Below, one piece after another: positions 30,338 through 62,304 of a DNA stretch of 64,000 nucleotides. The DNA comes from Siphonodentalium dalli (taxonomy: Eukaryota > Mollusca > Scaphopoda > Gadilida > Siphonodentaliidae), in NCBI GenBank assembly GCA_032622095.1, contig CP136061.1, forward strand, positions 45,949,797 through 46,013,796, given 5' to 3'. The first letter of the stretch is position 1; the number at the start of each line of letters is the position of its first letter. A program made the position numbers and the translations under genes. The notes beneath the pieces are model-generated. The model saw only the letters and a program-made list of their open reading frames with translations, ran no database searches and was not told where the DNA came from.

Positions 30338-30513
30338 AATGTCCGGTACCATATTTTTAGGCCTGTTTTAAACTAAAACAATAATGTTGTCGTTAGACAC
30401 ATTTTGGTGAACTGCCTTGTGAGGTGGTATACATGAAGCATGGGTTTATACTGATCTCTCTGTGAGGTATATATATATATACCTGAAGCCTGGGATTATA
30501 CTGATCTGTGAGG

Positions 30514-30727
30514 TACTGTAATGCCCTAAATAATCGACTCCTTAACCACAGTAGAATTATGGGTAACTTTTCAGGATTTAGTCGGAAATATGGCCTGTTG
30601 CCATTCAATGGAAAGATCAGTGAGAGCTTTCCGATAAATGGCAACAAGCCATATTTCTGACTAAATCCTGAAAAGTTACCCATAATTCTGCTGTGGTTAA
30701 GGAGTCGATTATTTAGGGCATTACTGG
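30514..30727. mobile_element. M1 MITE inserted in the distal edge of the minisatellite
   Basis: A full-length foldback element; recognisable decayed minisatellite units lie on both sides (30420-30513 and from 30728), so the insertion is younger than that part of the array. Confidence 0.9.
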
Positions 30728-33700
30728 ATATACATACCTGAAGCCTGGGTTGATTTGTAAGGGATATGATATATACCTGAGCCTGGGTTTATACTGATCT
30801 GTGAGATATATATATACCTGATGCCTGGGTTTATACTGATCTGTGAGGTATATATATACCTGATGCCTGGGTTTATCTGTGAGGTATATATATATATATA
30901 TATACCTGATGCCTGGGTTTATACTGATCTGTGAGGTATATATATATATATACCTGATGCCTGGGTTTATACTGATCTGTGAGATATATATATACCTGAT
31001 GCCTGGGTTTATACTGATCTGTGAGATATATATATACCTGATGCCTGGGTTTATACTGATCTGTGAGGTATATATATACCTGATGCCTGGGTTTATACTG
31101 ATCTGTGAGGTATATATATATATATATATATATATACCTGATGTCTGGGTTTATACTGATCTGTGATGTATGTATATACCTGAAGCCTGGGTTTATACTG
31201 ATCTGTGAGGTATGTATATATATACCTGATGGCTGGGTTTATACTGATCTGTGAGATATATATATACCTGATGCCTGGGTTTATACTGATCTGTGAGGTA
31301 TATATATACCTGATGCCTGGGTTTATACTGATCTGTGAGGTATGTATATATATACCTGAAGCCTGGGTTTATACTGATCTGTGAGGTATATATATACCTG
31401 ATGCCTGGGTTTATACTGATCTGTGAGGTATGTATATATATACCTGAAGCCTGGGTTTATACTGATCTGTGAGGTATATATATACCTGATGCCTGGGTTT
31501 ATACTGATCTGTGAGATATGTATATATATACCTGATGCCTGGGTTTATACTGATCTGTGAGGTATGTATATATATACCTGAAGCCTGGGTTTATACTGAT
31601 CTGTGAGGTATATATATACCTGATGCCTGGGTTTATACTGATCTGTGAGATATATATATATACCTGATGCCTGGGTTTATACTGATCTGTGAGGTATATA
31701 TATACCTCATGCCTGGGTTTATACTGATCTGTGAGATATGTATATATATACCTGATGCCTGGGTTTATACTGATCTGTGAGGTATATATATACCTGATGC
31801 CTGGGTTTATACTGATCTGTGAGATATATATATATACCTGAAGCCTGGGTTTATACTGATCTGTGAGGTATATATATACCTGATGCCTGGGTTTATCTGT
31901 GAGGTATATATATACCTGATGCCTGGGTTTATACTGATCTGTGAGGTATATATATACCTGATGCCTGGGTTTATCTGTGAGGTATATATATACCTGATGC
32001 CTGGGTTTATACTGATCTGTGAGGTATATATATACCTGATGCCTGGGTTTATACTGATCTGTGAGGTATATATATATATATATACCTGATGTCTGGGTTT
32101 ATACTGATCTGTGATGTATGTATATACCTGAAGCCTGGGTTTATACTGATCTGTGAGGTATGTATATATATACCTGATGCCTGGGTTTATACTGATCTGT
32201 GAGATATATATATACCCGAAGCCTGGGCTTATACTGATCTGTGAGGTATATATATACCTGATGCCTGGGTTTATACTGATCTGTGAGGTATATATATACC
32301 TGATGCCTGGGTTTATACTGATCTGTGAGGTATGTATATACCTGATGCCTGGGTTTATACTGATCTGTGAGGTATGTATATACCTGATGCCTGGGTTTAT
32401 ACTGATCTGTGAGGTATGTATATATATACCTGAAGCCTGGGTTTATACTGATCTGTGAGGTATATATATACCTGATGCCTGGGTTTATACTGATCTGTGA
32501 GGTATATATATATATATATACCTGATGCCTGGGTTTATACTGATCTGTGAGGTATATATATACCTGATGCCTGGGTTTATACTGATCTGTGAGATATGTA
32601 TATATATACCTGATGCCTGGGTTTATACTGATCTGTGAGGTATATATATACCCGATGCCTGGGTTTATACTGATCTGTGAGGTATATATATACCTGATGC
32701 CTGGGTTTATACTGATCTGTGAGGTATGTATATACCTGATGCCTGGGTTTATACTGATCTGTGAGGTATATATATACCTGATGCCTGGGTTTATCTGTGA
32801 GGTATGTATATATATACCTGATGCCTGGGTTTATACTGATCTGTGAGATATATATATACCTGATGCCTGGGTTTATACTGATCTGTGAGGTATATATATA
32901 CCTGATGCCTGGGTTTATACTGATCTGTGAGGTATATATATATATACCTGAAGCCTGGGTTTATACTGATCTGTGAGGTATATATATACCTGATGCCTGG
33001 GTTTATACTGATCTGTGAGGTATATATATACCTGATGCCTGGGTTTATACTGATCTGTGAGGTATGTATATATATACCTGATGCCTGGGTTTATACTGAT
33101 CTGTGAGATATATATATACCTGATGCCTGGGTTTATACTGATCTGTGAGGTATGTATATATATACCTGAAGCCTGGGTTTATACTGATCTGTGAGGTATA
33201 TATATACCTGATGCCTGGGTTTATACTGATCTGTGAGATATGTATATATATACCTGATGCCTGGGTTTATACTGATCTGTGAGGTATATATATACCTGAT
33301 GCCTGGGTTTATACTGATCTGTGAGGTATATATATACCTGATGCCTGGGTTTATACTGATCTGTGAGGTATGTATATACCTGATGCCTGGGTTTATACTG
33401 ATCTGTGAGGTATGTATATATATACCTGATGCCTGGGTTTATACTGATCTGTGAGGTATGTATATATATACATGAAGCCTGGGTTTATACTGATCTGTGA
33501 GGTATATATATACCTGATGCCTGGGTTTATACTGATCTGTGAGGTATGTATATATATACCTGATGCCTGGGTTTATACTGATCTGTGAGGTATATATATA
33601 CCTGATGCCTGGGTTTATACTGATCTGTGAGGTATATATATACCTGATGCCTGGGTTTATACTGATCTGTGAGGTATATATATACCTGCTGCCTGGGTTT

Positions 33701-34878
33701 ATCTGTGAGGTATATATATATACCTGATGCCTGGGTTTATACTGATCTGTGAGGTATGTATATATATACCTGATGCCTGGGTTTATACTGATCTGTGAGG
33801 TATGTATATATATACCTGAAGCCTGGGTTTATACTGATCTGTGAGGTATGTATATATATACCCGAAGCCTGGGTTTATACTGATCTGTGAGGTATATATA
33901 TACCTGAAGCCTGGGTTTATCTGTGAGGTATATATATATATATAAACCTGATGCCTGGGTTTGTACTGATCTGTGAGGTATGTATATATATACCTGATGC
34001 CTGGGTTTATACTGATCTGTGAGGTATGTATATATATATATACCTGATGCCTGGGTTTATACTGATCTGTGAGGTATATATATACCTGATGCCTGGGTTT
34101 ATACTGATCTGTGAGGTATATATATATATATATACCTGATGCCTGGGTTTATACTGATCTGTGAGGTATATATATACCTGATGCCTGGGTTTATACTGAT
34201 CTGTGAGGTATGTATATATATACCTGATGCCTGGGTTTATATTGATCTGTGAGGTATGTATATATATACCTGATGCCTGGGTTTATACTGATCTGTGAGG
34301 TATGTATATATATACCTGATGCCTGGGTTTATACTGATCTGTGAGGTATATATATACCTGATGCCTGGGTTTATACTGATCTGTGAGGTATGTATATATA
34401 TACCTGATGCCTGGGTTTATACTGATCTGTGAGGTATATATATACCTGATGCCTGGGTTTATACTGATCTGTGAGGTATGTATATATATACCTGATGCCT
34501 GGGTTTATATTGATCTGTGAGGTATGTATATATATACCTGATGCCTGGGTTTATACTGATCTGTGAGGTATGTATATATATACCTGATGCCTGGGTTTAT
34601 ACTGATCTGTGAGGTATGTATATATATACCTGATGCCTGGGTTTATACTGATCTGTGAGGTATGTATATACCTGATGCCTGGGTTTATACTGATCTGTGA
34701 GGTATGTATATATATACCTGAAGCCTGGGTTTATACTGATCTGTGAGGTATATATATACCTGATGCCTGGGTTTATACTGATCTGTGAGGTATATATATG
34801 TATATATATACCTGATGCCTGGGTTTATACTGATCTGTGAGGTATATATATACCTGATGCCTGGGTTTATACTGATCT

Positions 34879-37800
34879 GTGAGATATGTATATATATACC
34901 TGATGCCTGGGTTTATACTGATCTGTGAGGTATATATATACCTGATGCCTGGGTTTATACTGATCTGTGAGGTATGTATATACCTGATGCCTGGGTTTAT
35001 ACTGATCTGTGAGGTATATATATACCTGATGCCTGGGTTTATCTGTGAGGTATGTATATATATACCTGATGCCTGGGTTTATACTGATCTGTGAGATATA
35101 TATATACCTGATGCCTGGGTTTATACTGATCTGTGAGGTATATATATACCTGATGCCTGGGTTTATACTGATCTGTGAGGTATGTATATATATACCTGAT
35201 GCCTGGGTTTATACTGATCTGTGAGGTATATATATACCTGATGCCTGGGTTTATCTGTGAGGTATGTATATATATACCTGATGCCTGGGTTTATACTGAT
35301 CTGTGAGGTATATATATACCTGATGCCTGGGTTTATACTGATCTGTGAGATATATATATACCTGAAGCCTGGGTTTATACTGATCTGTGAGGTATATATA
35401 TACCTGATGCCTGGGTTTATACTGATCTGTGAGGTATATATATACCTGATGCCTGGGTTTATACTGATCTGTGAGGTATGTATATATATACCTGATGCCT
35501 GGGTTTATACTGATCTGTGAGATATATATATACCTGATGCCTGGGTTTATACTGATCTGTGAGGTATGTATATATATACCTGAAGCCTGGGTTTATACTG
35601 ATCTGTGAGGTATATATATACCTGATGCCTGGGTTTATACTGATCTGTGAGATATGTATATATATACCTGATGCCTGGGTTTATACTGATCTGTGAGGTA
35701 TATATATACCTGATGCCTGGGTTTATACTGATCTGTGAGGTATATATATACCTGATGCCTGGGTTTATACTGATCTGTGAGGTATGTATATACCTGATGC
35801 CTGGGTTTATACTGATCTGTGAGGTATGTATATATATACCTGATGCCTGGGTTTATACTGATCTGTGAGGTATGTATATATATACCTGAAGCCTGGGTTT
35901 ATACTGATCTGTGAGGTATATATATACCTGATGCCTGGGTTTATACTGATCTGTGAGGTATGTATATATATACCTGATGCCTGGGTTTATACTGATCTGT
36001 GAGGTATATATATACCTGATGCCTGGGTTTATACTGATCTGTGAGGTATATATATACCTGATGCCTGGGTTTATACTGATCTGTGAGGTATATATATACC
36101 TGCTGCCTGGGTTTATCTGTGAGGTATATATATATACCTGATGCCTGGGTTTATACTGATCTGTGAGGTATGTATATATATACCTGATGCCTGGGTTTAT
36201 ACTGATCTGTGAGGTATGTATATATATACCTGAAGCCTGGGTTTATACTGATCTGTGAGGTATGTATATATATACCTGAAGCCTGGGTTTATACTGATCT
36301 GTGAGGTATATATATACCTGAAGCCTGGGTTTATCTGTGAGGTATATATATATATATAAACCTGATGCCTGGGTTTGTACTGATCTGTGAGGTATGTATA
36401 TATATACCTGATGCCTGGGTTTATACTGATCTGTGAGGTATGTATATATATATATACCTGATGCCTGGGTTTATACTGATCTGTGAGGTATATATATATA
36501 CCTGATGTCTGGGTTTATACTGATCTGTGAGGTATATATATATATATATACCTGATGCCTGGGTTTATACTGATCTGTGAGGTATATATATACCTGATGC
36601 CTGGGTTTATACTGATCTGTGAGGTATGTATATATATACCTGATGCCTGGGTTTATATTGATCTGTGAGGTATGTATATACCTGATGCCTGGGTTTATAC
36701 TGATCTGTGAGGTATGTATATATATACCTGATGCCTGGGTTTATACTGATCTGTGAGGTATGTATATATATACCTGATGCCTGGGTTTATACTGATCTGT
36801 GAGGTATGTATATACCTGATGCCTGGGTTTATACTGATCTGTGAGGTATGTATATATATACCTGAAGCCTGGGTTTATACTGATCTGTGAGGTATATATA
36901 TACCTGATGCCTGGGTTTATACTGATCTGTGAGGTATATATATGTATATATATACCTGATGCCTGGGTTTATACTGATCTGTGAGATATGTATATATATA
37001 CCTGATGCCTGGGTTTATACTGATCTGTGAGGTATATATATACCCGATGCCTGGGTTTATACTGATCTGTGAGGTATATATATACCTGATGCCTGGGTTT
37101 ATACTGATCTGTGAGGTATGTATATACCTGATGCCTGGGTTTATACTGATCTGTGAGGTATATATATACCTGATGCCTGGGTTTATCTGTGAGGTATGTA
37201 TATATATACCTGATGCCTGGGTTTATACTGATCTGTGAGATATATATATACCTGATGCCTGGGTTTATACTGATATGTGAGGTATATATATACCTGATGC
37301 CTGGGTTTATACTGATCTGTGAGGTATATATATATATACCTGAAGCCTGGGTTTATACTGATCTGTGAGGTATATATATACCTGATGCCTGGGTTTATAC
37401 TGATCTGTGAGGTATATATATACCTGATGCCTGGGTTTATACTGATCTGTGAGGTATGTATATATATACCTGATGCCTGGGTTTATACTGATCTGTGAGA
37501 TATATATATACCTGATGCCTGGGTTTATACTGATCTGTGAGGTATGTATATATATACCTGAAGCCTGGGTTTATACTGATCTGTGAGGTATATATATACC
37601 TGATGCCTGGGTTTATACTGATCTGTGAGATATGTATATATATACCTGATGCCTGGGTTTATACTGATCTGTGAGGTATATATATACCTGATGCCTGGGT
37701 TTATCTGTGAGGTATGTATATATATACCTGAAGCCTGGGTTTATACTGATCTGTGAGGTATATATATACCTGATGCCTGGGTTTATACTGATCTGTGAGG

Positions 37801-40800
37801 TATATATATGTATATATATACCTGATGCCTGGGTTTATACTGATCTGTGAGGTATATATATACCTGATGCCTGGGTTTATACTGATCTGTGAGATATGTA
37901 TATATATACCTGATGCCTGGGTTTATACTGATCTGTGAGGTATATATATACCTGATGCCTGGGTTTATACTGATCTGTGAGGTATGTATATACCTGATGC
38001 CTGGGTTTATACTGATCTGTGAGGTATATATATACCTGATGCCTGGGTTTATCTGTGAGGTATGTATATATATACCTGATGCCTGGGTTTATACTGATCT
38101 GTGGGATATATATATACCTGATGCCTGGGTTTATACTGATCTGTGAGGTATATATATACCTGATGCCTGGGTTTATACTGATCTGTGAGGTATGTATATA
38201 TATACCTGATGCCTGGGTTTATACTGATCTGTGAGGTATATATATACCTGATGCCTGGGTTTATCTGTGAGGTATGTATATATATACCTGATGCCTGGGT
38301 TTATACTGATCTGTGAGGTATATATATACCTGATGCCTGGGTTTATACTGATCTGTGAGGTATATATATACCTGATGCCTGGGTTTATACTGATCTGTGA
38401 GATATATATATACCTGAAGCCTGGGTTTATACTGATCTGTGAGGTATATATATACCTGATGCCTGGGTTTATACTGATCTGTGAGGTATATATATACCTG
38501 ATGCCTGGGTTTATACTGATCTGTGAGGTATGTATATATATACCTGATGCCTGGGTTTATACTGATCTGTGAGATATATATATACCTGATGCCTGGGTTT
38601 ATACTGATCTGTGAGGTATGTATATATATACCTGAAGCCTGGGTTTATACTGATCTGTGAGGTATATATATACCTGATGCCTGGGTTTATACTGATCTGT
38701 GAGATATGTATATATATACCTGATGCCTGGGTTTATACTGATCTGTGAGGTATATATATACCTGATGCCTGGGTTTATACTGATCTGTGAGGTATATATA
38801 TACCTGATGCCTGGGTTTATACTGATCTGTGAGGTATGTATATACCTGATGCCTGGGTTTATACTGATCTGTGAGGTATGTATATATATACCTGATGCCT
38901 GGGTTTATACTGATCTGTGAGGTATGTATATATATACCTGAAGCCTGGGTTTATACTGATCTGTGAGGTATATATATACCTGATGCCTGGGTTTATACTG
39001 ATCTGTGAGGTATGTATATATATACCTGATGCCTGGGTTTATACTGATCTGTGAGGTATATATATACCTGATGCCTGGGTTTATACTGATCTGTGAGGTA
39101 TATATATACCTGATGCCTGGGTTTATACTGATCTGTGAGGTATATATATACCTGCTGCCTGGGTTTATCTGTGAGGTATATATATATACCTGATGCCTGG
39201 GTTTATACTGATCTGTGAGGTATGTATATATATACCTGATGCCTGGGTTTATACTGATCTGTGAGGTATGTATATATATACCTGAAGCCTGGGTTTATAC
39301 TGATCTGTGAGGTATGTATATATATACCTGAAGCCTGGGTTTATACTGATCTGTGAGGTATATATATACCTGAAGCCTGGGTTTATCTGTGAGGTATATA
39401 TATATATATAAACCTGATGCCTGGGTTTGTACTGATCTGTGAGGTATGTATATATATACCTGATGCCTGGGTTTATACTGATCTGTGAGGTATGTATATA
39501 TATATATACCTGATGCCTGGGTTTATACTGATCTGTGAGGTATATATATATACCTGATGCCTGGGTTTATACTGATCTGTGAGGTATATATATATATATA
39601 TACCTGATGCCTGGGTTTATACTGATCTGTGAGGTATATATATACCTGATGCCTGGGTTTATACTGATCTGTGAGGTATGTATATATATACCTGATGCCT
39701 GGGTTTATATTGATCTGTGAGGTATGTATATACCTGATGCCTGGGTTTATACTGATCTGTGAGGTATGTATATATATACCTGATGCCTGGGTTTATACTG
39801 ATCTGTGAGGTATGTATATATATACCTGATGCCTGGGTTTATACTGATCTGTGAGGTATGTATATACCTGATGCCTGGGTTTATACTGATCTGTGAGGTA
39901 TGTATATATATACCTGAAGCCTGGGTTTATACTGATCTGTGAGGTATATATATACCTGATGCCTGGGTTTATACTGATCTGTGAGGTATATATATGTATA
40001 TATATACCTGATGCCTGGGTTTATACTGATCTGTGAGATATGTATATATATACCTGATGCCTGGGTTTATACTGATCTGTGAGGTATATATATACCCGAT
40101 GCCTGGGTTTATACTGATCTGTGAGGTATATATATACCTGATGCCTGGGTTTATACTGATCTGTGAGGTATGTATATACCTGATGCCTGGGTTTATACTG
40201 ATCTGTGAGGTATATATATACCTGATGCCTGGGTTTATCTGTGAGGTATGTATATATATACCTGATGCCTGGGTTTATACTGATCTGTGAGATATATATA
40301 TACCTGATGCCTGGGTTTATACTGATATGTGAGGTATATATATACCTGATGCCTGGGTTTATACTGATCTGTGAGGTATATATATATATACCTGAAGCCT
40401 GGGTTTATACTGATCTGTGAGGTATATATATACCTGATGCCTGGGTTTATACTGATCTGTGAGGTATATATATACCTGATGCCTGGGTTTATACTGATCT
40501 GTGAGGTATGTATATATATACCTGATGCCTGGGTTTATACTGATCTGTGAGATATATATATACCTGATGCCTGGGTTTATACTGATCTGTGAGGTATGTA
40601 TGTATATATATACCTGAAGCCTGGGTTTATACTGATCTGTGAGGTATATATATACCTGATGCCTGGGTTTATACTGATCTGTGAGATATGTATATATATA
40701 CCTGATGCCTGGGTTTATACTGATCTGTGAGGTATGTATATATATACCTGATGCCTGGGTTTATACTGATCTGTGAGGTATATATATACCTGATGCCTGG

Positions 40801-41118
40801 GTTTATACTGATCTGTGAGGTATATATATACCTGATGCCTGGGTTTATACTGATCTGTGAGATATGTATATATATACCTGATGCCTGGGTTTATACTGAT
40901 CTGTGAGGTATGTATATATATACCTGATGCCTGGGTTTATACTGATCTTTGAGGTATATATATACCTGATGCCTGGGTTTATACTGATCTGTGAGGTATG
41001 TATATACCTGATGCCTGGGTTTATACTGATCTGTGAGGTATATATATACCTGATGCCTGGGTTTATCTGTGAGGTATGTATATATATACCTGATGCCTGG
41101 GTTTATACTGATCTGTGA
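34879..41118. repeat. Higher-order repeat of about 3.05 kb inside the minisatellite
   Basis: Identical combinations of variant units recur at fixed distance: pairs 34879/37889 and 35257/38267 are 3,010 bp apart, while pairs 35647/38699, 35953/39005 and 36981/40033 are 3,052 bp apart. The 42-bp difference is one extra unit in the second copy near 38.3 kb. This is a block-level tandem duplication on top of the unit array. Confidence 0.8.
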
Positions 41119-44100
41119 GATATATATATACCTGATGCCTGGGTTTATACTGATCTGTGAGGTATATATATACCTGATGCCTGGGTTTATACTGATCTGT
41201 GAGGTATATATATATATACCTGAAGCCTGGGTTTATACTGATCTGTGAGGTATATATATACCTGATGCCTGGGTTTATACTGATCTGTGAGGTATATATA
41301 TACCTGATGCCTGGGTTTATACTGATCTGTGAGGTATGTATATATATACCTGATGCCTGGGTTTATACTGATCTGTGAGATATATATATACCTGATGCCT
41401 GGGTTTATACTGATCTGTGAGGTATGTATATATATACCTGAAGCCTGGGTTTATACTGATCTGTGAGGTATATATATACCTGATGCCTGGGTTTATACTG
41501 ATCTGTGAGATATGTATATATATACCTGATGCCTGGGTTTATACTGATCTGTGAGGTATATATATACCTGATGCCTGGGTTTATACTGATCTGTGAGGTA
41601 TATATATACCTGATGCCTGGGTTTATACTGATCTGTGAGGTATGTATATACCTGATGCCTGGGTTTATACTGATCTGTGAGGTATGTATATATATACCTG
41701 ATGCCTGGGTTTATACTGATCTGTGAGGTATGTATATATATACCTGAAGCCTGGGTTTATACTGATCTGTGAGGTATATATATACCTGATGCCTGGGTTT
41801 ATACTGATCTGTGAGGTATGTATATATATACCTGATGCCTGGGTTTATACTGATCTGTGAGGTATATATATACCTGATGCCTGGGTTTATACTGATCTGT
41901 GAGGTATATATATACCTGCTGCCTGGGTTTATCTGTGAGGTATATATATATACCTGATGCCTGGGTTTATACTGATCTGTGAGGTATGTATATATATACC
42001 TGAAGCCTGGGTTTATACTGATCTGTGAGGTATATATATACCTGAAGCCTGGGTTTATCTGTGAGGTATATATATATATATAAACCTGATGCCTGGGTTT
42101 GTACTGATCTGTGAGGTATGTATATATATACCTGATGCCTGGGTTTATACTGATCTGTGAGGTATGTATATATATATATACCTGATGCCTGGGTTTATAC
42201 TGATCTGTGAGGTATATATATACCTGATGCCTGGGTTTATACTGATCTGTGAGGTATATATATATATATATACCTGATGTCTGGGTTTATACTGATCTGT
42301 GAGGTATATATATACCTGAAGCCTGGGTTTATACTGATCTGTGAGGTATATATATACCTGATGCCTGGGTTTATACTGATCTGTGAGGTATATATATACC
42401 TGATGCCTGGGTTTATACTGATCTGTGAGGTATGTATATATATACCTGATGCCTGGGTTTATACTGATCTGTGAGATATATATATACCTGATGCCTGGGT
42501 TTATACTGATCTGTGAGGTATGTATATATATACCTGAAGCCTGGGTTTATACTGATCTGTGAGGTATATATATACCTGATGCCTGGGTTTATACTGATCT
42601 GTGAGATATGTATATATATACCTGATGCCTGGGTTTATACTGATCTGTGAGGTATATATATACCTGATGCCTGGGTTTATACTGATCTGTGAGGTATATA
42701 TATACCTGATGCCTGGGTTTATACTGATCTGTGAGGTATGTATATACCTGATGCCTGGGTTTATACTGATCTGTGAGGTATGTATATATATACCTGATGC
42801 CTGGGTTTATACTGATCTGTGAGGTATGTATATATATACCTGAAGCCTGGGTTTATACTGATCTGTGAGGTATATATATACCTGATGCCTGGGTTTATAC
42901 TGATCTGTGAGGTATGTATATATATACCTGATGCCTGGGTTTATACTGATCTGTGAGGTATATATATACCTGATGCCTGGGTTTATACTGATCTGTGAGG
43001 TATATATATACCTGATGCCTGGGTTTATACTGATCTGTGAGGTATATATATACCTGCTGCCTGGGTTTATCTGTGAGGTATATATATATACCTGATGCCT
43101 GGGTTTATACTGATCTGTGAGGTATGTATATATATACCTGATGCCTGGGTTTATACTGATCTGTGAGGTATGTATATATATACCTGAAGCCTGGGTTTAT
43201 ACTGATCTGTGAGGTATGTATATATATACCTGAAGCCTGGGTTTATACTGATCTGTGAGGTATATATATACCTGAAGCCTGGGTTTATCTGTGAGGTATA
43301 TATATATATATAAACCTGATGCCTGGGTTTGTACTGATCTGTGAGGTATGTATATATATACCTGATGCCTGGGTTTATACTGATCTGTGAGGTATGTATA
43401 TATATATATACCTGATGCCTGGGTTTATACTGATCTGTGAGGTATATATATATACCTGATGCCTGGGTTTATACTGATCTGTGAGGTATATATATATATA
43501 TATACCTGATGCCTGGGTTTATACTGATCTGTGAGGTATATATATACCTGATGCCTGGGTTTATACTGATCTGTGAGGTATGTATATATATACCTGATGC
43601 CTGGGTTTATATTGATCTGTGAGGTATGTATATACCTGATGCCTGGGTTTATACTGATCTGTGAGGTATGTATATATATACCTGATGCCTGGGTTTATAC
43701 TGATCTGTGAGGTATGTATATATATACCTGATGCCTGGGTTTATACTGATCTGTGAGGTATGTATATACCTGATGCCTGGGTTTATACTGATCTGTGAGG
43801 TATGTATATATATACCTGAAGCCTGGGTTTATACTGATCTGTGAGGTATATATATACCTGATGCCTGGGTTTATACTGATCTGTGAGGTATATATATGTA
43901 TATATATACCTGATGCCTGGGTTTATACTGATCTGTGAGGTATATATATACCTGATGCCTGGGTTTATACTGATCTGTGAGATATGTATATATATACCTG
44001 ATGCCTGGGTTTATACTGATCTGTGAGGTATATATATACCCGATGCCTGGGTTTATACTGATCTGTGAGGTATATATATACCTGATGCCTGGGTTTATAC

Positions 44101-47100: not shown

Positions 47101-49000
47101 GTGAGGTATGTATATATATACCTGAAGCCTGGGTTTATACTGATCTGTGAGGTATGTATATATATACCTGAAGCCTGGGTTTATACTGATCTGTGAGGTA
47201 TATATATACCTGAAGCCTGGGTTTATCTGTGAGGTATATATATATATATAAACCTGATGCCTGGGTTTGTACTGATCTGTGAGGTATGTATATATATACC
47301 TGATGCCTGGGTTTATACTGATCTGTGAGGTATGTATATATATATATACCTGATGCCTGGGTTTATACTGATCTGTGAGGTATATATATATACCTGATGC
47401 CTGGGTTTATACTGATCTGTGAGGTATATATATATATATATACCTGATGCCTGGGTTTATACTGATCTGTGAGGTATATATATACCTGATGCCTGGGTTT
47501 ATACTGATCTGTGAGGTATGTATATATATACCTGATGCCTGGGTTTATATTGATCTGTGAGGTATGTATATACCTGATGCCTGGGTTTATACTGATCTGT
47601 GAGGTATGTATATATATACCTGATGCCTGGGTTTATACTGATCTGTGAGGTATGTATATATATACCTGATGCCTGGGTTTATACTGATCTGTGAGGTATG
47701 TATATACCTGATGCCTGGGTTTATACTGATCTGTGAGGTATGTATATATATACCTGAAGCCTGGGTTTATACTGATCTGTGAGGTATATATATACCTGAT
47801 GCCTGGGTTTATACTGATCTGTGAGGTATATATATGTATATATATACCTGATGCCTGGGTTTATACTGATCTGTGAGGTATATATATACCTGATGCCTGG
47901 GTTTATACTGATCTGTGAGATATGTATATATATACCTGATGCCTGGGTTTATACTGATCTGTGAGGTATATATATACCCGATGCCTGGGTTTATACTGAT
48001 CTGTGAGGTATATATATACCTGATGCCTGGGTTTATACTGATCTGTGAGGTATGTATATACCTGATGCCTGGGTTTATACTGATCTGTGAGGTATATATA
48101 TACCTGATGCCTGGGTTTATCTGTGAGGTATGTATATATATACCTGATGCCTGGGTTTATACTGATCTGTGAGATATATATATACCTGATGCCTGGGTTT
48201 ATACTGATATGTGAGGTATATATATACCTGATGCCTGGGTTTATACTGATCTGTGAGGTATATATATATATACCTGAAGCCTGGGTTTATACTGATCTGT
48301 GAGGTATATATATACCTGATGCCTGGGTTTATACTGATCTGTGAGGTATATATATACCTGATGCCTGGGTTTATACTGATCTGTGAGGTATGTATATATA
48401 TACCTGATGCCTGGGTTTATACTGATCTGTGAGATATATATATACCTGATGCCTGGGTTTATACTGATCTGTGAGGTATGTATATATATACCTGAAGCCT
48501 GGGTTTATACTGATCTGTGAGGTATATATATACCTGATGCCTGGGTTTATACTGATCTGTGAGATATGTATATATATACCTGATGCCTGGGTTTATACTG
48601 ATCTGTGAGGTATGTATATATATACCTGATGCCTGGGTTTATACTGATCTGTGAGGTATATATATACCTGATGCCTGGGTTTATACTGATCTGTGAGGTA
48701 TATATATACCTGATGCCTGGGTTTATACTGATCTGTGAGATATGTATATATATACCTGATGCCTGGGTTTATACTGATCTGTGAGGTATGTATATATATA
48801 CCTGATGCCTGGGTTTATACTGATCTTTGAGGTATATATATACCTGATGCCTGGGTTTATACTGATCTGTGAGGTATGTATATACCTGATGCCTGGGTTT
48901 ATACTGATCTGTGAGGTATATATATACCTGATGCCTGGGTTTATCTGTGAGGTATGTATATATATACCTGATGCCTGGGTTTATACTGATCTGTGAGATA
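40033..49000. repeat. Higher-order repeat of about 3.94 kb inside the minisatellite
   Basis: A rare variant unit with GATCTTTGAG occurs at about 40945, 44885 and 48823, and its surroundings recur at 40903, 44843 and 48781 (3,940 then 3,938 bp). Other pairs, 42277/46215, 42601/46539, 42907/46845 and 43977/47915, are exactly 3,938 bp apart. The 2-bp change is visible as one missing TA before the CTGCTGCC unit at about 45850 compared with about 41910. At least two full copies and part of a third are present. Confidence 0.85.
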
Positions 49001-52000
49001 TATATATACCTGATGCCTGGGTTTATACTGATCTGTGAGGTATATATATACCTGATGCCTGGGTTTATACTGATCTGTGAGGTATATATATATATACCTG
49101 AAGCCTGGGTTTATACTGATCTGTGAGGTATATATATACCTGATGCCTGGGTTTATACTGATCTGTGAGGTATATATATACCTGATGCCTGGGTTTATAC
49201 TGATCTGTGAGGTATGTATATATATACCTGATGCCTGGGTTTATACTGATCTGTGAGATATATATATACCTGATGCCTGGGTTTATACTGATCTGTGAGG
49301 TATATATATACCTGATGCCTGGGTTTATACTGATCTGTGAGATATGTATATATATACCTGATGCCTGGGTTTATACTGATCTGTGAGGTATATATATACC
49401 TGATGCCTGGGTTTATACTGATCTGTGAGGTATATATATACCTGATGCCTGGGTTTATACTGATCTGTGAGGTATATATATACCTGATGCCTGGGTTTAT
49501 ACTGATCTGTGAGGTATGTATATATATACCTGATGCCTGGGTTTATACTGATCTGTGAGGTATGTATATATATACCTGATGCCTGGGTTTATACTGATCT
49601 GTGAGGTATGTATATATATACCTGAAGCCTGGGTTTATACTGATCTGTGAGGTATATATATACCTGATGCCTGGGTTTATACTGATCTGTGAGGTATGTA
49701 TATATATACCTGATGCCTGGGTTTATACTGATCTGTGAGGTATATATATACCTGATGCCTGGGTTTATACTGATCTGTGAGGTATATATATACCTGCTGC
49801 CTGGGTTTATCTGTGAGGTATATATATATACCTGATGCCTGGGTTTATACTGATCTGTGAGGTATGTATATATATACCTGAAGCCTGGGTTTATACTGAT
49901 ATGTGAGGTATATATATACCTGAAGCCTGGGTTTATCTGTGAGGTATATATATATATATATAAACCTGATGCCTGGGTTTGTACTGATCTGTGAGGTATG
50001 TATATATATACCTGATGCCTGGGTTTATACTGATCTGTGAGGTATGTATATACCTGATGCCTGGGTTTATACTGATCTGTGAGGTATATATATACCTGAT
50101 GCCTGGGTTTATCTGTGAGGTATGTATATATATACCTGATGCCTGGGTTTATACTGATCTGTGAGATATATATATACCTGATGCCTGGGTTTATACTGAT
50201 CTGTGAGGTATATATATACCTGATGCCTGGGTTTATACTGATCTGTGAGGTATATATATATATACCTGAAGCCTGGGTTTATACTGATCTGTGAGGTATA
50301 TATATACCTGATGCCTGGGTTTATACTGATCTGTGAGGTATATATATACCTGATGCCTGGGTTTATACTGATCTGTGAGGTATGTATATATATACCTGAT
50401 GCCTGGGTTTATACTGATCTGTGAGATATATATATACCTGATGCCTGGGTTTATACTGATCTGTGAGGTATGTATATATATACCTGAAGCCTGGGTTTAT
50501 ACTGATCTGTGAGGTATATATATACCTGATGCCTGGGTTTATACTGATCTGTGAGATATGTATATATATACCTGATGCCTGGGTTTATACTGATCTGTGA
50601 GGTATATATATACCTGATGCCTGGGTTTATACTGATCTGTGAGGTATATATATACCTGATGCCTGGGTTTATACTGATCTGTGAGGTATGTATATACCTG
50701 ATGCCTGGGTTTATACTGATCTGTGAGGTATGTATATATATACCTGATGCCTGGGTTTATACTGATCTGTGAGGTATGTATATATATACCTGAAGCCTGG
50801 GTTTATACTGATCTGTGAGGTATATATATACCTGATGCCTGGGTTTATACTGATCTGTGAGGTATGTATATATATACCTGATGCCTGGGTTTATACTGAT
50901 CTGTGAGGTATATATATACCTGATGCCTGGGTTTATACTGATCTGTGAGGTATATATATACCTGCTGCCTGGGTTTATCTGTGAGGTATATATATATACC
51001 TGATGCCTGGGTTTATACTGATCTGTGAGGTATGTATATATATACCTGAAGCCTGGGTTTATACTGATCTGTGAGGTATATATATACCTGAAGCCTGGGT
51101 TTATTTGTGAGGTATATATGTATATATAAACCTGATGCCTGGGTTTGTACTGATCTGTGAGGTATGTATATATATACCTGATGCCTGGGTTTATACTGAT
51201 CTGTGAGGTATGTATATATATATATACCTGATGCCTGGGTTTATACTGATCTGTGAGGTATATATATACCTGATGCCTGGGTTTATACTGATCTGTGAGG
51301 TATATATATATATATATACCTGATGCCTGGGTTTATACTGATCTGTGAGGTATATATATACCTGATGCCTGGGTTTATACTGATCTGTGAGGTATGTATA
51401 TATATACCTGATGCCTGGGTTTATATTGATCTGTGAGGTATATATATACCTGATGCCTGGGTTTATACTGATCTGTGAGGTATGTATATATATACCTGAT
51501 GCCTGGGTTTATACTGATCTGTGAGGTATATATATACCTGATGCCTGGGTTTATACTGATCTGTGAGGTATGTATATATATACCTGATGCCTGGGTTTAT
51601 ACTGATCTGTGAGGTATGTATATATATACCTGATGCCTGGGTTTATACTGATCTGTGAGGTATGTATATATATACCTGATGCCTGGGTTTATACTGATCT
51701 GTGAGGTATATATATACCTGATGCCTGGGTTTATACTGATCTGTGAGGTATGTATATATATATACCTGATGCCTGGGTTTATACTGATCTGTGAGGTATG
51801 TATATATATACCTGATGCCTGGGTTTATACTGATCTGTGAGGTATGTATATATATACCTGATGCCTGGGTTTATATTGATCTGTGAGGTATGTATATATA
51901 TACCTGATGCCTGGGTTTATACTGATCTGTGAGGTATGTATATATATACCTGATGCCTGGGTTTATACTGATCTGTGAGGTATGTATATATATACCTGAT

Positions 52001-53559
52001 GCCTGGGTTTATACTGATCTGTGAGGTATGTATATACCTGATGCCTGGGTTTATACTGATCTGTGAGGTATGTATATATATACCTGAAGCCTGGGTTTAT
52101 ACTGATCTGTGAGGTATATATATACCTGATGCCTGGGTTTATACTGATCTGTGAGGTATGTATATATATACCTGATGCCTGGGTTTATACTGATCTGTGA
52201 GGTATATATATACCTGATGCCTGGGTTTATACTGATCTGTGAGGTATGTATATACCTGATGCCTGGGTTTATACTGATCTGTGAGGTATATATATACCTG
52301 ATGCCTGGGTTTATCTGTGAGGTATGTATATATATACCTGATGCCTGGGTTTATACTGATCTGTGAGATATATATATACCTGATGCCTGGGTTTATACTG
52401 ATCTGTGAGGTATATATATACCTGATGCCTGGGTTTATACTGATCTGTGAGGTATATATATATATACCTGAAGCCTGGGTTTATACTGATCTGTGAGGTA
52501 TATATATACCTGATGCCTGGGTTTATACTGATCTGTGAGGTATATATATACCTGATGCCTGGGTTTATACTGATCTGTGAGGTATGTATATATATACCTG
52601 ATGCCTGGGTTTATACTGATCTGTGAGATATATATATACCTGATGCCTGGGTTTATACTGATCTGTGAGGTATGTATATATATACCTGAAGCCTGGGTTT
52701 ATACTGATCTGTGAGGTATATATATACCTGATGCCTGGGTTTATACTGATCTGTGAGATATGTATATATATACCTGATGCCTGGGTTTATACTGATCTGT
52801 GAGGTATGTATATATATACCTGATGCCTGGGTTTATACTGATCTGTGAGGTATATATATACCTGATGCCTGGGTTTATACTGATCTGTGAGGTATATATA
52901 TACCTGATGCCTGGGTTTATACTGATCTGTGAGATATGTATATATATACCTGATGCCTGGGTTTATACTGATCTGTGAGGTATGTATATATATACCTGAT
53001 GCCTGGGTTTATACTGATCTGTGAGGTATATATATACCTGATGCCTGGGTTTATACTGATCTGTGAGATATGTATATATATACCTGATGCCTGGGTTTAT
53101 ACTGATCTGTGAGGTATGTATATATATACCTGATGCCTGGGTTTATACTGATCTGTGAGGTATATATATACCTGATGCCTGGGTTTATACTGATCTGTGA
53201 GGTATATATATACCTGATGCCTGGGTTTATACTGATCTGTGAGGTATGTATATATATACCTGAAGCCTGGGTTTATACTGATCTGTGAGGTATGTATATA
53301 TATACCTGATGCCTGGGTTTATACTGATCTGTGAGGTATGTATATATATACCTGATGCCTGGGTTTATACTGATCTGTGAGGTATGTATATATATACCTG
53401 AAGCCTGGGTTTATACTGATCTGTGAGGTATGTATATACCTGATGCCTGGGTTTATACTGATCTGTGAGGTATATATATACCTGATGCCTGGGTTTATAC
53501 TGATCTGTGAGGTATGTATATATATACCTGATGCCTGGGTTTATACTGATCTGTGAGGT

Positions 53560-56500
53560 ATATATATACCTGCTGCCTGGGTTTATCTGTGAGGTATATA
53601 TATATACCTGATGCCTGGGTTTATACTGATCTGTGAGGTATGTATATATATATACCTGATGCCTGGGTTTATACTGATCTGTGAGGTATGTATATATATA
53701 CCTGATGCCTGGGTTTATACTGATCTGTGAGGTATGTATATATATACCTGATGCCTGGGTTTATACTGATCTGTGAGGTATATATATACCCGATGCCTGG
53801 GTTTATACTGATCTGTGAGGTATGTATATATATACCTGATGCCTGGGTTTATACTGATCTGTGAGGTATATATATACCTGAAGCCTGGGTTTATACTGAT
53901 CTGTGAGGTATGTATATATATACCTGATGCCTGGGTTTATACTGATCTGTGAGGTATATATATACCTGAAGCCTGGGTTTATACTGATCTGTGAGGTATG
54001 TATATATATACCTGAAGCCTGGGTTTATACTGATCTGTGAGGTATGTATATATATACCTGATGCCTGGGTTTATACTGATCTGTGAGGTATGTATATATA
54101 TACCTGATGCCTGGGTTTATACTGATCTGTGAGGTATGTATATATACCTGATGCCTGGGTTTATACTGATCTGTGAGGTATGTATATATATACCTGATGC
54201 CTGGGTTTATACTGATCTGTGAGGTATATATATACCTGATGCCTGGGTTTATACTGATCTGTGAGGTATATATATACCTGATGCCTGGGTTTATACTGAT
54301 CTGTGAGGTATGTATATATATACCTGATGCCTGGGTTTATACTGATCTGTGAGATATGTATATATATACCTGATGCCTGGGTTTATACTGATCTGTGAGG
54401 TATATATATACCTGATGCCTGGGTTTATACTGATCTGTGAGGTATGTATATACCTGATGCCTGGGTTTATACTGATCTGTGAGGTATGTATATATATACC
54501 TGATGCCTGGGTTTATACTGATCTGTGAGGTATGTATATATATACCTGAAGCCTGTGTTTATACTGATCTGTGAGGTATATATATACCTGATGCCTGGGT
54601 TTATACTGATCTGTGAGGTATGTATATATATACCTGATGCCTGGGTTTATACTGATCTGTGAGGTATATATATACCTGATGCCTGGGTTTATACTGATCT
54701 GTGAGGTATATATATACCTGCTGCCTGGGTTTATCTGTGAGGTATATATATATACCTGATGCCTGGGTTTATACTGATCTGTGAGGTATGTATATATATA
54801 CCTGAAGCCTGGGTTTATACTGATCTGTGAGGTATATATATACCTGATGCCTGGGTTTATACTGATCTGTGAGATATGTATATATATACCTGATGCCTGG
54901 GTTTATACTGATCTGTGAGGTATGTATATATATACCTGATGCCTGGGTTTATACTGATCTGTGAGGTATATATATACCTGATGCCTGGGTTTATACTGAT
55001 CTGTGAGGTATATATATACCTGATGCCTGGGTTTATACTGATCTGTGAGATATGTATATATATACCTGATGCCTGGGTTTATACTGATCTGTGAGGTATG
55101 TATATATATACCTGATGCCTGGGTTTATACTGATCTGTGAGGTATATATATACCTGATGCCTGGGTTTATACTGATCTGTGAGATATGTATATATATACC
55201 TGATGCCTGGGTTTATACTGATCTGTGAGGTATGTATATATATACCTGATGCCTGGGTTTATACTGATCTGTGAGGTATATATATACCTGATGCCTGGGT
55301 TTATACTGATCTGTGAGGTATATATATACCTGATGCCTGGGTTTATACTGATCTGTGAGGTATGTATATATATACCTGAAGCCTGGGTTTATACTGATCT
55401 GTGAGGTATGTATATATATACCTGATGCCTGGGTTTATACTGATCTGTGAGGTATGTATATATATACCTGATGCCTGGGTTTATACTGATCTGTGAGGTA
55501 TGTATATATATACCTGAAGCCTGGGTTTATACTGATCTGTGAGGTATGTATATACCTGATGCCTGGGTTTATACTGATCTGTGAGGTATATATATACCTG
55601 ATGCCTGGGTTTATACTGATCTGTGAGGTATGTATATATATACCTGATGCCTGGGTTTATACTGATCTGTGAGGTATATATATACCTGCTGCCTGGGTTT
55701 ATCTGTGAGGTATATATATATACCTGATGCCTGGGTTTATACTGATCTGTGAGGTATGTATATATATATACCTGATGCCTGGGTTTATACTGATCTGTGA
55801 GGTATGTATATATATACCTGATGCCTGGGTTTATACTGATCTGTGAGGTATGTATATATATACCTGATGCCTGGGTTTATACTGATCTGTGAGGTATATA
55901 TATACCCGATGCCTGGGTTTATACTGATCTGTGAGGTATGTATATATATACCTGATGCCTGGGTTTATACTGATCTGTGAGGTATATATATACCTGAAGC
56001 CTGGGTTTATACTGATCTGTGAGGTATGTATATATATACCTGATGCCTGGGTTTATACTGATCTGTGAGGTATATATATACCTGAAGCCTGGGTTTATAC
56101 TGATCTGTGAGGTATGTATATATATACCTGAAGCCTGGGTTTATACTGATCTGTGAGGTATGTATATATATACCTGATGCCTGGGTTTATACTGATCTGT
56201 GAGGTATGTATATATATACCTGATGCCTGGGTTTATACTGATCTGTGAGGTATGTATATATACCTGATGCCTGGGTTTATACTGATCTGTGAGGTATGTA
56301 TATATATACCTGATGCCTGGGTTTATACTGATCTGTGAGGTATATATATACCTGATGCCTGGGTTTATACTGATCTGTGAGGTATATATATACCTGATGC
56401 CTGGGTTTATACTGATCTGTGAGGTATGTATATATATACCTGATGCCTGGGTTTATACTGATCTGTGAGATATGTATATATATACCTGATGCCTGGGTTT

Positions 56501-56850
56501 ATACTGATCTGTGAGGTATATATATACCTGATGCCTGGGTTTATACTGATCTGTGAGGTATGTATATACCTGATGCCTGGGTTTATACTGATCTGTGAGG
56601 TATGTATATATATACCTGATGCCTGGGTTTATACTGATCTGTGAGGTATGTATATATATACCTGAAGCCTGTGTTTATACTGATCTGTGAGGTATATATA
56701 TACCTGATGCCTGGGTTTATACTGATCTGTGAGGTATGTATATATATACCTGATGCCTGGGTTTATACTGATCTGTGAGGTATATATATACCTGATGCCT
56801 GGGTTTATACTGATCTGTGAGGTATATATATACCTGCTGCCTGGGTTTAT
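53560..56850. repeat. Duplicated block of about 2.1 kb in the E2-proximal part of the minisatellite
   Basis: The rare variant GCCTGTGTTT occurs at 54551 and 56667 (2,116 bp apart). CTGCTGCC short units at about 53571/55685 and 54718/56833 repeat the same spacing. This is a second, independent higher-order period in the array. Confidence 0.65.
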
Positions 56851-59800
56851 CTGTGAGGTATATATATATACCTGATGCCTGGGTTTATACTGATCTGTGA
56901 GGTATGTATATATATACCTGAAGCCTGGGTTTATACTGATCTGTGAGGTATATATATACCTGAAGCCTGGGTTTATTTGTGAGGTATATATGTATATATA
57001 AACCTGATGCCTGGGTTTGTACTGATCTGTGAGGTATGTATATATATACCTGATGCCTGGGTTTATACTGATCTGTGAGGTATGTATATATATATATACC
57101 TGATGCCTGGGTTTATACTGATCTGTGAGGTATATATATACCTGATGCCTGGGTTTATACTGATCTGTGAGGTATATATATATATATATACCTGATGCCT
57201 GGGTTTATACTGATCTGTGAGGTATATATATACCTGATGCCTGGGTTTATACTGATCTGTGAGGTATGTATATATATACCTGATGCCTGGGTTTATATTG
57301 ATCTGTGAGGTATATATATACCTGATGCCTGGGTTTATACTGATCTGTGAGGTATGTATATATATACCTGATGCCTGGGTTTATACTGATCTGTGAGGTA
57401 TATATATACCTGATGCCTGGGTTTATACTGATCTGTGAGGTATATATATACCTGATGCCTGGGTTTATACTGATCTGTGAGGTATGTATATATATACCTG
57501 ATGCCTGGGTTTATACTGATCTGTGAGGTATGTATATATATACCTGATGCCTGGGTTTATACTGATCTGTGAGGTATATATATACCTGATGCCTGGGTTT
57601 ATACTGATCTGTGAGGTATGTATATATATACCTGATGCCTGGGTTTATACTGATCTGTGAGGTATGTATATATATACCTGATGCCTGGGTTTATACTGAT
57701 CTGTGAGGTATGTATATATATACCTGATGCCTGGGTTTATATTGATCTGTGAGGTATGTATATATATACCTGATGCCTGGGTTTATACTGATCTGTGAGG
57801 TATGTATATATATACCTGATGCCTGGGTTTATACTGATCTGTGAGGTATGTATATATATACCTGATGCCTGGGTTTATACTGATCTGTGAGGTATGTATA
57901 TACCTGATGCCTGGGTTTATACTGATCTGTGAGGTATGTATATATATACCTGAAGCCTGGGTTTATACTGATCTGTGAGGTATATATATACCTGATGCCT
58001 GGGTTTATACTGATCTGTGAGGTATGTATATATATACCTGATGCCTGGGTTTATACTGATCTGTGAGGTATATATATACCTGATGCCTGGGTTTATACTG
58101 ATCTGTGAGGTATGTATATACCTGATGCCTGGGTTTATACTGATCTGTGAGGTATGTATATATATACCTGATGCCTGGGTTTATACTGATCTGTGAGGTA
58201 TATATATACCTGATGCCTGGGTTTATCTGTGAGGTATGTATATATATACCTGATGCCTGGGTTTATACTGATCTGTGAGGTATATATATACCTGATGCCT
58301 GGGTTTATCTGTGAGGTATGTATATATATACCTGATGCCTGGGTTTATACTGATCTGTGAGATATATATATACCTGATGCCTGGGTTTATACTGATCTGT
58401 GAGGTATATATATACCTGATGCCTGGGTTTATACTGATCTGTGAGGTATATATATATATATACCTGAAGCCTGGGTTTATACTGATCTGTGAGGTATATA
58501 TATACCTGATGCCTGGGTTTATACTGATCTGTGAGGTATATATATACCTGATGCCTGGGTTTATACTGATCTGTGAGGTATGTATATATATACCTGATGC
58601 CTGGGTTTATACTGATCTGTGAGATATATATATATACCTGATGCCTGGGTTTATACTGATCTGTGAGGTATGTATATATATACCTGAAGCCTGGGTTTAT
58701 ACTGATCTGTGAGGTATATATATACCTGATGCCTGGGTTTATACTGATCTGTGAGATATGTATATATATACCTGATGCCTGGGTTTATACTGATCTGTGA
58801 GGTATGTATATATATACCTGATGCCTGGGTTTATACTGATCTGTGAGGTATATATATACCTGATGCCTGGGTTTATACTGATCTGTGAGGTATATATATA
58901 CCTGATGCCTGGGTTTATACTGATCTGTGAGATATGTATATATATACCTGATGCCTGGGTTTATATTGATCTGTGAGGTATGTATATATATATATACCTG
59001 ATGCCTGGGTTTATACTGATCTGTGAGGTATATATATATATATATACCTGATGCCTGGGTTTATACTGATCTGTGAGGTATGTATATATATACCTGATGC
59101 CTGGGTTTATACTGATCTGTGAGGTATATATATACCTGATGCCTGGGTTTATACTGATCTGTGAGATATGTATATATATACCTGATGCCTGGGTTTATAC
59201 TGATCTGTGAGGTATGTATATATATACCTGATGCCTGGGTTTATACTGATCTGTGAGGTATATATATACCTGATGCCTGGGTTTATACTGATCTGTGAGG
59301 TATATATATACCTGATGCCTGGGTTTATACTGATCTGTGAGGTATGTATATATATACCTGAAGCCTGGGTTTATACTGATCTGTGAGGTATGTATATATA
59401 TACCTGATGCCTGGGTTTATACTGATCTGTGAGGTATGTATATATATACCTGATGCCTGGGTTTATACTGATCTGTGAGGTATGTATATATATACCTGAA
59501 GCCTGGGTTTATACTGATCTGTGAGGTATGTATATACCTGATGCCTGGGTTTATACTGATCTGTGAGGTATATATATACCTGATGCCTGGGTTTATACTG
59601 ATCTGTGAGGTATGTATATATATACCTGATGCCTGGGTTTATACTGATCTGTGAGGTATATATATACCTGCTGCCTGGGTTTATCTGTGAGGTATATATA
59701 TATACCTGATGCCTGGGTTTATACTGATCTGTGAGGTATGTATATATATATACCTGATGCCTGGGTTTATACTGATCTGTGAGGTATGTATATATATACC

Positions 59801-61224
59801 TGATGCCTGGGTTTATACTGATCTGTGAGGTATGTATATATATACCTGATGCCTGGGTTTATTCTGATCTGTGAGGTATATATATACCCGATGCCTGGGT
59901 TTATACTGATCTGTGAGGTATGTATATATATACCTGATGCCTGGGTTTATACTGATCTGTGAGGTATATATATACCTGAAGCCTGGGTTTATACTGATCT
60001 GTGAGGTATGTATATATATACCTGATGCCTGGGTTTATACTGATCTGTGAGGTATATATATACCTGAAGCCTGGGTTTATACTGATCTGTGAGGTATGTA
60101 TATATATACCTGAAGCCTGGGTTTATATTGATCTGTGAGGTATGTATATATATACCTGATGCCTGGGTTTATATTGATCTGTGAGGTATGTATATATATA
60201 TACCTGATGCCTGGGTTTATACTGATCTGTGAGGTATGTATATATATACCTGATGCCTGGGTTTATATTGATCTGTGAGGTATGTATATATATATACCTG
60301 ATGCCTGGGTTTATACTGATCTGTGAGGTATGTATATATATACCTGATGCCTGGGTTTATATTGATCTGTGAGGTATGTATATATATACCTGATGCCTGG
60401 GTTTATATTGATCTGTGAGGTATGTATATATATACCTGATGCCTGGGTTTATACTGATCTGTGAGGTATGTATATATATATATACCTGATGCCTGGGTTT
60501 ATACTGATCTGTGAGGTATATATATACCTGATGCCTGGGTTTATACTGATCTGTGAGGTATGTATATATATACCTGATGCCTGGGTTTATACTGATCTGT
60601 GAGGTATATATATACCTGATGCCTGGGTTTATACTGATCTGTGAGGTATGTATATATATACCTGATGCCTGGGTTTATACTGATCTGTGAGGTATATATA
60701 TACCTGATGCCTGGGTTTATATTGATCTGTGAGGTATATATATACCTGATGCCTGGGTTTATACTGATCTGTGAGGTATATATATACCTGATGCCTGGGT
60801 TTATACTGATCTGTGAGGTATGTATATATATACCTGATGCCTGGGTTTATATTGATCTGTGAGGTATATATATACCTGATGCCTGGGTTTATACTGATCT
60901 GTGAGATATATATATATACCTGATGCCTGGGTTTATACTGATCTGTGAGGTATATATATACCTGATGCCTGGGTTTATCTGTGAGGTATATATATATATA
61001 TAAACCTGAAGCCTGGGTTTATACTGATCTGTGAGGTATGTATATATATACCTGAAGCCTGGGTTTATACTGATCTGTGAGGTATATATATATACCTGAA
61101 GCCTGGGTTTATACTGATCTGTGAGGTATATATATACCTGAAGCCTGGGTTTATACTGATCTGTGAGGTATATATATACCTGATTCCTGGGTTGACTTTG
61201 ATTTGTAATGGATATGATATATAC

Positions 61225-61315
61225 CTGAGGCAGCTATTGAATTTGATCCACCATTAGATACGGATCCGGAGAGAAGATTACCATCCATCTGCATCACTAT
61301 AGTCTTCCAGCCATC
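61225..61315 (-). CDS. Exon E2: middle of LamG-like domain
   Basis: This 91-nt exon lies between acceptor TTTTCTTCAG and donor CAG|GTATAT. It starts in phase 0, matching the end of E1, and ends in phase 1. It encodes about 30 residues starting DGWKTIVMQMDGNLLSGSV, the typical LamG pair of strands (W-x-T-hydrophobic run followed by a D/N-G turn). Its donor is unusual: the intron continues GTATATATCATATCC, and this is the first, divergent unit of the 31-kb minisatellite that fills intron 2. The donor itself is therefore part of the repeat pattern. Phase agreement with E1 and E3 and the continuity of the LamG fold make the call firm despite the short length. Confidence 0.85.
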
Positions 61316-61951: not shown

Positions 61952-62304
61952 TTCGTCATTAACTGTTAAAACTTTGGGAGGATCGTTCGTCGTATCCACA
62001 GTAAAGGCTACACCGCTGTTTTTAACAGTAATTGCTAGAGTTGGATCTAAGTCGCAGTCTTTGTTTGTCAACAAAGCAAGTTCATAGTTGCCTGTTGGTT
62101 TGTCTTCTTTGAATCTGATTTCGATGTACACAGTATCTGGCCACCACTTTTCTCTGAAAGCCGGAATTGAGATGCTGGATGTTGCTCCATTGAAATTCCC
62201 AATACCACCTTGGATGTCAACATCCTTGAAATCTGCCCAAACATTAGCTCCGCCCCCATTGGCAACGGTGTCATCAAATGTGATTTCCAACTCAGGTTTG
62301 CAAA
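61952..62304 (-). CDS. Exon E1: N-terminal part of LamG-like domain, Pif/BMSP-like extracellular matrix protein
   Basis: This 353-nt internal exon follows a pyrimidine-rich acceptor (TTTCTTTATTTTAG) and ends at donor GTGAGT. It enters in phase 1, using two nucleotides to complete a codon, and leaves in phase 0. It encodes about 117 residues beginning CKPELEITFDDTVANGGG, followed by GGIGNFNG and a WWPDTVYIEIRFK strand. This is the beta-sandwich pattern of LamG-like (concanavalin-like) domains, including those of molluscan Pif/BMSP shell proteins. The segment is rich in Asp/Glu, as expected of a mineral-matrix protein. The domain continues in E2 and E3. No start codon belongs here; the methionine-initiated reading that begins upstream of the acceptor is intronic. 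Function as a secreted shell or cuticle matrix component is inferred from domain composition; the LamG-like assignment rests on pattern recognition, not a profile search. Confidence 0.85.

Follow-up and report, generated by a model that had tools for sequence, protein, structure and literature searches.

A minisatellite anchored at a 5' splice donor in two paralogous introns

The intron behind exon E2 of a gene on contig C1 carries a minisatellite of about 680 units, mostly 42 or 46 bp long (30420..61224, minus strand), that is anchored at the 5' splice donor of this exon, and a shorter array is anchored at the same donor in the paralogous intron on contig C8. The window analysed here is the 64,000-nt stretch C1:45949797-46013796 of a 2.227-Gb, 9-contig assembly, and positions are window positions unless a contig is named. 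As an overall explanation, we consider it rather probable that the minisatellite was born at the donor before the gene was duplicated and was re-amplified in the window, with its donor copies (decoys) mostly skipped and the array neutral. According to this explanation, tandem duplication of sequence at and just downstream of the donor would have created the minisatellite in the common ancestor of the two segmentally duplicated genes. The C8 copy has about 63 units, and the window copy would have been re-amplified to about 680, in part because blocks of kb size from a variant bearing CAG|GT were duplicated. During splicing, the proximal donor would close the normal 91-nt exon (exon definition), and the decoys would be more sequestered than the true donor by a predicted GGUAUAUAUAUACC hairpin.

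The gene and its donor-anchored array

The gene model comprises three exons on the minus strand. E1 (61952..62304, 353 nt) has an open frame and splice sites that were read directly, E2 (61225..61315, 91 nt) ends with CCTCAG in phase 1, and E3 as proposed (13187..13402, 216 nt) is in phase with E2 and matches the Pfam domain CBM_14 (E 1.1e-5). Spliced together, they keep phase and give one uninterrupted reading frame of 219 residues, both in the window gene and in its C8 paralog. A distant paralog (exon at C1:46058331; 46% identical in E1) has a homologous exon that ends at the same codon and in the same phase (CTCTCTG|GTAAGG). The open joined frame, the same donor in C8 and the shared exon end and phase in the distant paralog indicate that the E2 donor is likely genuine. 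With these exons and no further small exons between E2 and E3, the coordinates give an E2-E3 intron of 47,822 bp, of which about 30.8 kb are array; its C8 counterpart measures 19,250 bp.

Based on CBM_14 in E3, the gene is predicted to encode a protein with a chitin-binding domain. Searching E1 and E2 against Pfam returned no family above cut-off (the best, Kre9_KNH with E 0.12, was below its cut-off), a PDB sequence search gave no matches up to E 1, and the AlphaFold model of E1 had a mean pLDDT of 46. We can only guess that the product is a Pif/BMSP-like shell protein of molluscs: this family has VWA, CBM_14 and LG domains according to the excerpt available from PMC11291548, and neither a VWA nor an LG domain was found in the four proteins searched with Pfam. 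The E1 protein is 91% identical to that of the C8 paralog and 46% and 31% identical to those of two further paralogs, and E2 differs from its C8 counterpart by 3 substitutions in 91 nt. Comparison of E1-E3 between the window gene and the C8 paralog gave dN 0.038 and dS 0.097. Because E1 alone gave dN 0.049 and dS 0.069, constraint on the gene appears only modest.

On the minus strand, E2 ends ...GCTGCCTCAG, the intron starts GTATATATCATATCC, and AATCAG|GTATATATATACC comes 45 nt on. At 61180..61224 (45 nt, minus strand), the sequence thus contains the true 5' splice donor, CAG|GTATAT, together with the first unit of the repeat, which is divergent, in agreement with the sequence-only reading, which had placed the end of E2 at CCTCAG and found a divergent unit followed by AATCAG after about 45 nt. 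Tandem Repeats Finder reported one dominant array (31123-61193) with 685.6 copies of about 42-46 bp and an extra block at 30728-31120. Among 683 parsed units, 323 were 42 bp long, the length originally given for the unit, and 260 were 46 bp long. Over the whole window, the minus strand has 673 copies of the 9-mer CAG|GTATAT (CAGGTATAT), true donor included, and the plus strand has none; the initial estimate was 700 look-alikes. All 673 copies fall inside 61315-30400. The shorter CAGGTAT is present 674 times in this interval, and the rest of the window has three more on the minus strand. The array is about 63% AT. Its tandem units lie within the range of about 10-100 bp and it reaches kb size, as in a minisatellite or VNTR, and its units carry splice-donor sequence contiguous with a real donor, as in a minisatellite that supplies donors.

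Near its 3' end, the array is interrupted by a palindromic MITE-like element of about 210 bp (read from sequence at ~30516..30725, minus strand, approximate borders), which is absent from the aligned place in the C8 array. Further window copies of this element, which has long inverted repeats, lie at about 61892-61781, 30164-29970, 28888-28719, 20043-19873 and 14807-14586, among others. Tandem Repeats Finder additionally detected a 175-bp tandem pair and a GTT/GTG-rich array at 11456-11776 and 17702-17874.

One satellite in two introns, and the direction of its growth

A search of the whole 2.23-Gb assembly with a 24-nt core of the unit (both strands, up to 3 mismatches, reversed-pattern control; more diverged or masked copies lie beyond its reach) gave 649 reverse and 63 forward matches, equal to the 649 of the window and the 63 of the C8 locus. 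Likewise, a 27-nt pattern, for which at most 2 mismatches were allowed, gave 647 and 21 matches genome-wide, again the counts of window and C8. As reversed-pattern controls for both core motifs yielded 0 and 0 matches, chance is ruled out for the array motifs. With the 24-nt core and up to 3 mismatches, no copy of the satellite was detected assembly-wide outside the window intron and the paralogous C8 intron, and the sequence comparisons point to a single origin of the array. Abundance of the satellite at unrelated loci had been named at the outset as grounds against seeding by the donor; with matches in the two introns alone, the seeding idea withstood this check. We also rejected a dispersed satellite family or transposon-borne repeat, since at up to 3 mismatches the two introns fully explain the core counts of 649 and 63.

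The C8 array is followed by a 102-bp 3' flank (C8:183187577-183187678) that is itself a dispersed repeat found on several contigs; among the best candidates, copies with 74-81% identity occur at at least 8 places besides the two arrays. Four of these eight copies were examined, and in them no same-strand alignment extended into the repeat unit, with one 10-bp opposite-strand match seen. On the evidence of these four copies, the unit does not appear to derive from the flank repeat.

The C8 array spans 2.78 kb (63.4 copies of 44 bp), shares donor and first unit with the window array at its start and has a homologous 3' flank, and collinear stretches flank the E2-E3 intron on both sides at the two loci. 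Because donor, first unit and the collinear stretches on either side are shared, the array is older than the segmental gene duplication. The two arrays differ about 11-fold in size, with 63 units in C8 versus about 680 in the window. They also differ in diversity, since 650 C1 units contain 23 distinct 36-mers versus 44 among 63 C8 units, and the C1 array harbours exact direct repeats of 3,459 bp (at a distance of 3,938 bp) and 2,220 bp (at 2,116 bp). The few distinct 36-mers together with the long exact repeats argue for recent amplification in C1. Judged from these comparisons, the window array was re-amplified about 11-fold after the duplication, in part through recent kb-scale copying.

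The same exact repeats would be expected if the assembler had over-expanded the repeat, and the array length was read from one assembly. However, the window contains no N and minority unit types are scattered through the array, and we regard such an artefact as highly improbable; as C8 has the same satellite at the same donor, it could affect the length at most.

Most units of the sister array have lost their donor-likeness. Of 58 scored C8 units, 9 keep CAG|GTATAT and 41 read CATGTATAT, so that the notion of an array that requires or preserves donor-likeness is not borne out. Behind the homologous exon of the distant paralog (C1:46058331), there is no array, and the start of its intron shows no likeness to the first unit by eye. 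The C7 paralog has no recognisable E2 in the 11.7 kb inspected. A paralog at C1:45947948 has an E1-like exon, with no array unit in 9.9 kb and no E2 found in the part inspected, and was left out of the comparisons.

The first unit was traced with a 27-nt motif across the whole genome, allowing up to 3 mismatches. It was found at three places, all exact, namely the two true donors (C1 and C8) and a site near the 3' end of the window array (30738..30776, minus strand), which represents a second copy of the first-unit type; inexact matches alone mean little, since the reversed control gave 2 and 2. The divergent unit therefore does start the array at the donor, as first described, and recurs near the opposite end. 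The same motif search revealed no 3' copy in the C8 array. Both the 3' copy and the C8 first unit carry C where the C1 first unit carries A, which fits with the 3' copy being old. Array ends tend to retain old unit types. The presence of first-type units at both ends thus suggests the donor-proximal sequence as the old type. Moreover, E2 ends in 7 bases of which 6 agree with the unit tail. This match is weak and suggestive, as 27 of 683 control CAG sites (about 4% by chance) agree equally well over the 4 bases that precede CAG. The first-type units at both ends and the exon tail would fit growth of the array out of donor-proximal sequence.

Alternatively, the edge of an array that arrived or grew in the intron could have replaced the original donor, which would make the first unit a captured repeat unit instead of a seed. 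In line with this, the first unit aligns with the array consensus along its full length (35 of 45 columns identical, a score reached by 0 of 500 mononucleotide shuffles), and the GTATAT donor may be derived, given that CTG|GTAAGG, the donor of the distant paralog, is unrelated to it. This alternative is less easily reconciled with the finding of first-type units at the two array ends and nowhere else, with the lack of any source locus among the satellite matches and, weakly, with the similarity of exon tail and unit tail, and we consider it unlikely. The intron start of the distant paralog, being unlike the first unit, does not decide between a donor that seeded the array and an array that supplied the donor. 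Of the donor-seeded satellite originally proposed, the anchoring at a likely donor stands, the satellite was not found at unrelated loci, and the direction is inferred: the founder was probably donor-proximal sequence rather than an array edge turned donor.

Predicted strength and use of the decoys

U1 duplex energies were computed, against the U1 5' end, for 682 C1 unit starts of the form TC[AG][GT]GT[AT]T. Exactly CAGGTATAT is read at 658 of them; the form omits the true donor and 14 units that end with GCAGCAG, which are included in the count of 673. The true donor scored -7.6 kcal/mol and 616 of the 682 unit starts scored -8.2 kcal/mol. In total, 618 had energies no higher than -7.6 kcal/mol and 628 energies no higher than -7.5 kcal/mol, compared to 9 of 58 C8 units at or below -7.5 kcal/mol. 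Isolated hairpins had energies of -1.0 kcal/mol at the C1 true donor and -1.4 at the C8 true donor, versus -4.8 for the 42-bp unit, -4.9 for the 46-bp unit and -1.2 for the C8 unit. The C1 decoys are thus predicted to pair with U1 about as well as the true donor and to lie in stronger hairpins. The two properties are not independent, because one base at -1 alters both.

Local folding of 125 C1 decoys from the first 5.7 kb was predicted in windows of 80, 120, 200 and 300. At window 200, the true donor was more accessible than 124 of the 125 decoys, and one was as accessible. Decoys that equalled or exceeded the true donor in accessibility made up a fraction of 0.13, 0.03 and 0.00 at windows 80, 120 and 300; the contrast was thus weaker in the short window, and absolute accessibilities were tiny throughout. 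In C8, 0.47-0.78 of the units were at least as accessible as the true donor over the four windows, i.e. there was no contrast.

Reading on from the start of E2, donors are located at offsets 91 (true), 136, 178 and onward, and the first stop at offset 162. Use of the first decoy would add 45 nt, in frame and stop-free, encoding 15 residues (GIYHIHYKSKSTQES). Later decoys include the stop at about intron position +72, and their use is therefore predicted to lead probably to message decay. Both outcomes would suit a functional array, in which donor copies bind U1 or drive regulated mis-splicing (a poison extension of E2) and array length tunes the output. The U1 energies of the 618 unit starts at or below that of the true donor point the same way, as does human IFI6, in which, according to the part of PMC4526556 available, downstream repeat units are used as donors. 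Against such a function, the sister array has mostly lost donor-likeness, and nothing indicative of selection was visible in the donor columns of the array, which by eye vary at least as much as its other columns. We rate a functional array as very unlikely; the array itself is most likely neutral.

Pyrimidine fractions were 0.71-0.76 before three real acceptors versus 0.41-0.53 before the AGs of the 42-bp consensus unit. Given these poor pyrimidine tracts, microexons appear unlikely. Recursive-splicing ratchet sites were rejected, with a fraction of 0.41 before CAG|GT in the 42-bp consensus unit versus 0.71-0.76. Exon definition, the predicted hairpins, the poor pyrimidine tracts and the stop codon together suggest that the decoys are probably mostly skipped by splicing.

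The two paralogs might even tolerate their donor copies in different ways, the short array disabling most of them via the -1 base (CAT|GT) and the long array masking near-perfect copies in GG...CC-closed hairpins that are absent at the true donor. We regard this as quite unlikely. If true, the -1 base would restore U1 pairing and close the mask together, and splicing fidelity would shape satellite evolution.

Relation to known repeats

The minisatellite of human IFI6 reportedly has a 12-bp unit in few copies, and the array described here differs from it by units of 42-46 bp, about 680 copies, a length of 31 kb and a second array in a paralog. IFI6 (6-16, G1P3) is a precedent for what the sequence-only reading had thought undescribed, as its minisatellite supplies multiple splice donors (Turri et al. 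1995, described in the available part of PMC4526556). In both cases minisatellite units carry donor sequence; those here are candidate donors, and in IFI6, by the same account, downstream units serve as donors. A minisatellite that supplies donor copies is thus already known in kind, and size and the paralogous array set the present case apart. Among titles and abstract starts in a non-exhaustive literature search, no donor-anchored array of such size was found.

The tandem duplication of an AG|GT segment multiplies splice signals also in a model of intron gain (Rogers 1989; Hellsten et al. 2011), with 24-bp AGGT repeats in fission yeast (PMC4974935). In that model, as far as the excerpts describe it, duplicated exonic sequence gives rise to new introns, whereas the intron here pre-existed and the unit is mostly intronic. 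We rejected intron gain by this route, as exon end and phase are common to a paralog without array. FRA10B and FRA16B, AT-rich minisatellites of 42 and 33 bp that expand to many kb, resemble the array in a unit near 42 bp, AT-richness and length, but are 91% AT compared to about 63% here, and donor anchoring is not mentioned in the excerpt (PMC9714581). Similarly, CeRep25B of C. elegans is a palindromic minisatellite largely within introns and near alternative exons, but forms clusters at many loci, and the excerpt mentions no donor copies (PMC4039745).

A single intron thus contains its own donor 9-mer some 670 times, the C8 intron offers a paired natural control of the same intron and array origin with few full donors, and a further paralog lacks the array. 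Such a set-up allows a direct test, within one species, of whether the spliceosome relies on proximity, exon definition or RNA structure when it selects one donor among hundreds of identical ones.

The duplicated locus also carries a second tandem array upstream of E1. It lies just outside the window at C1:46019593-46021664 (34-bp unit, 60.8 copies) and is longer than its C8 counterpart at C8:183175221-183175974, which has about 22 copies (754 bp matched).
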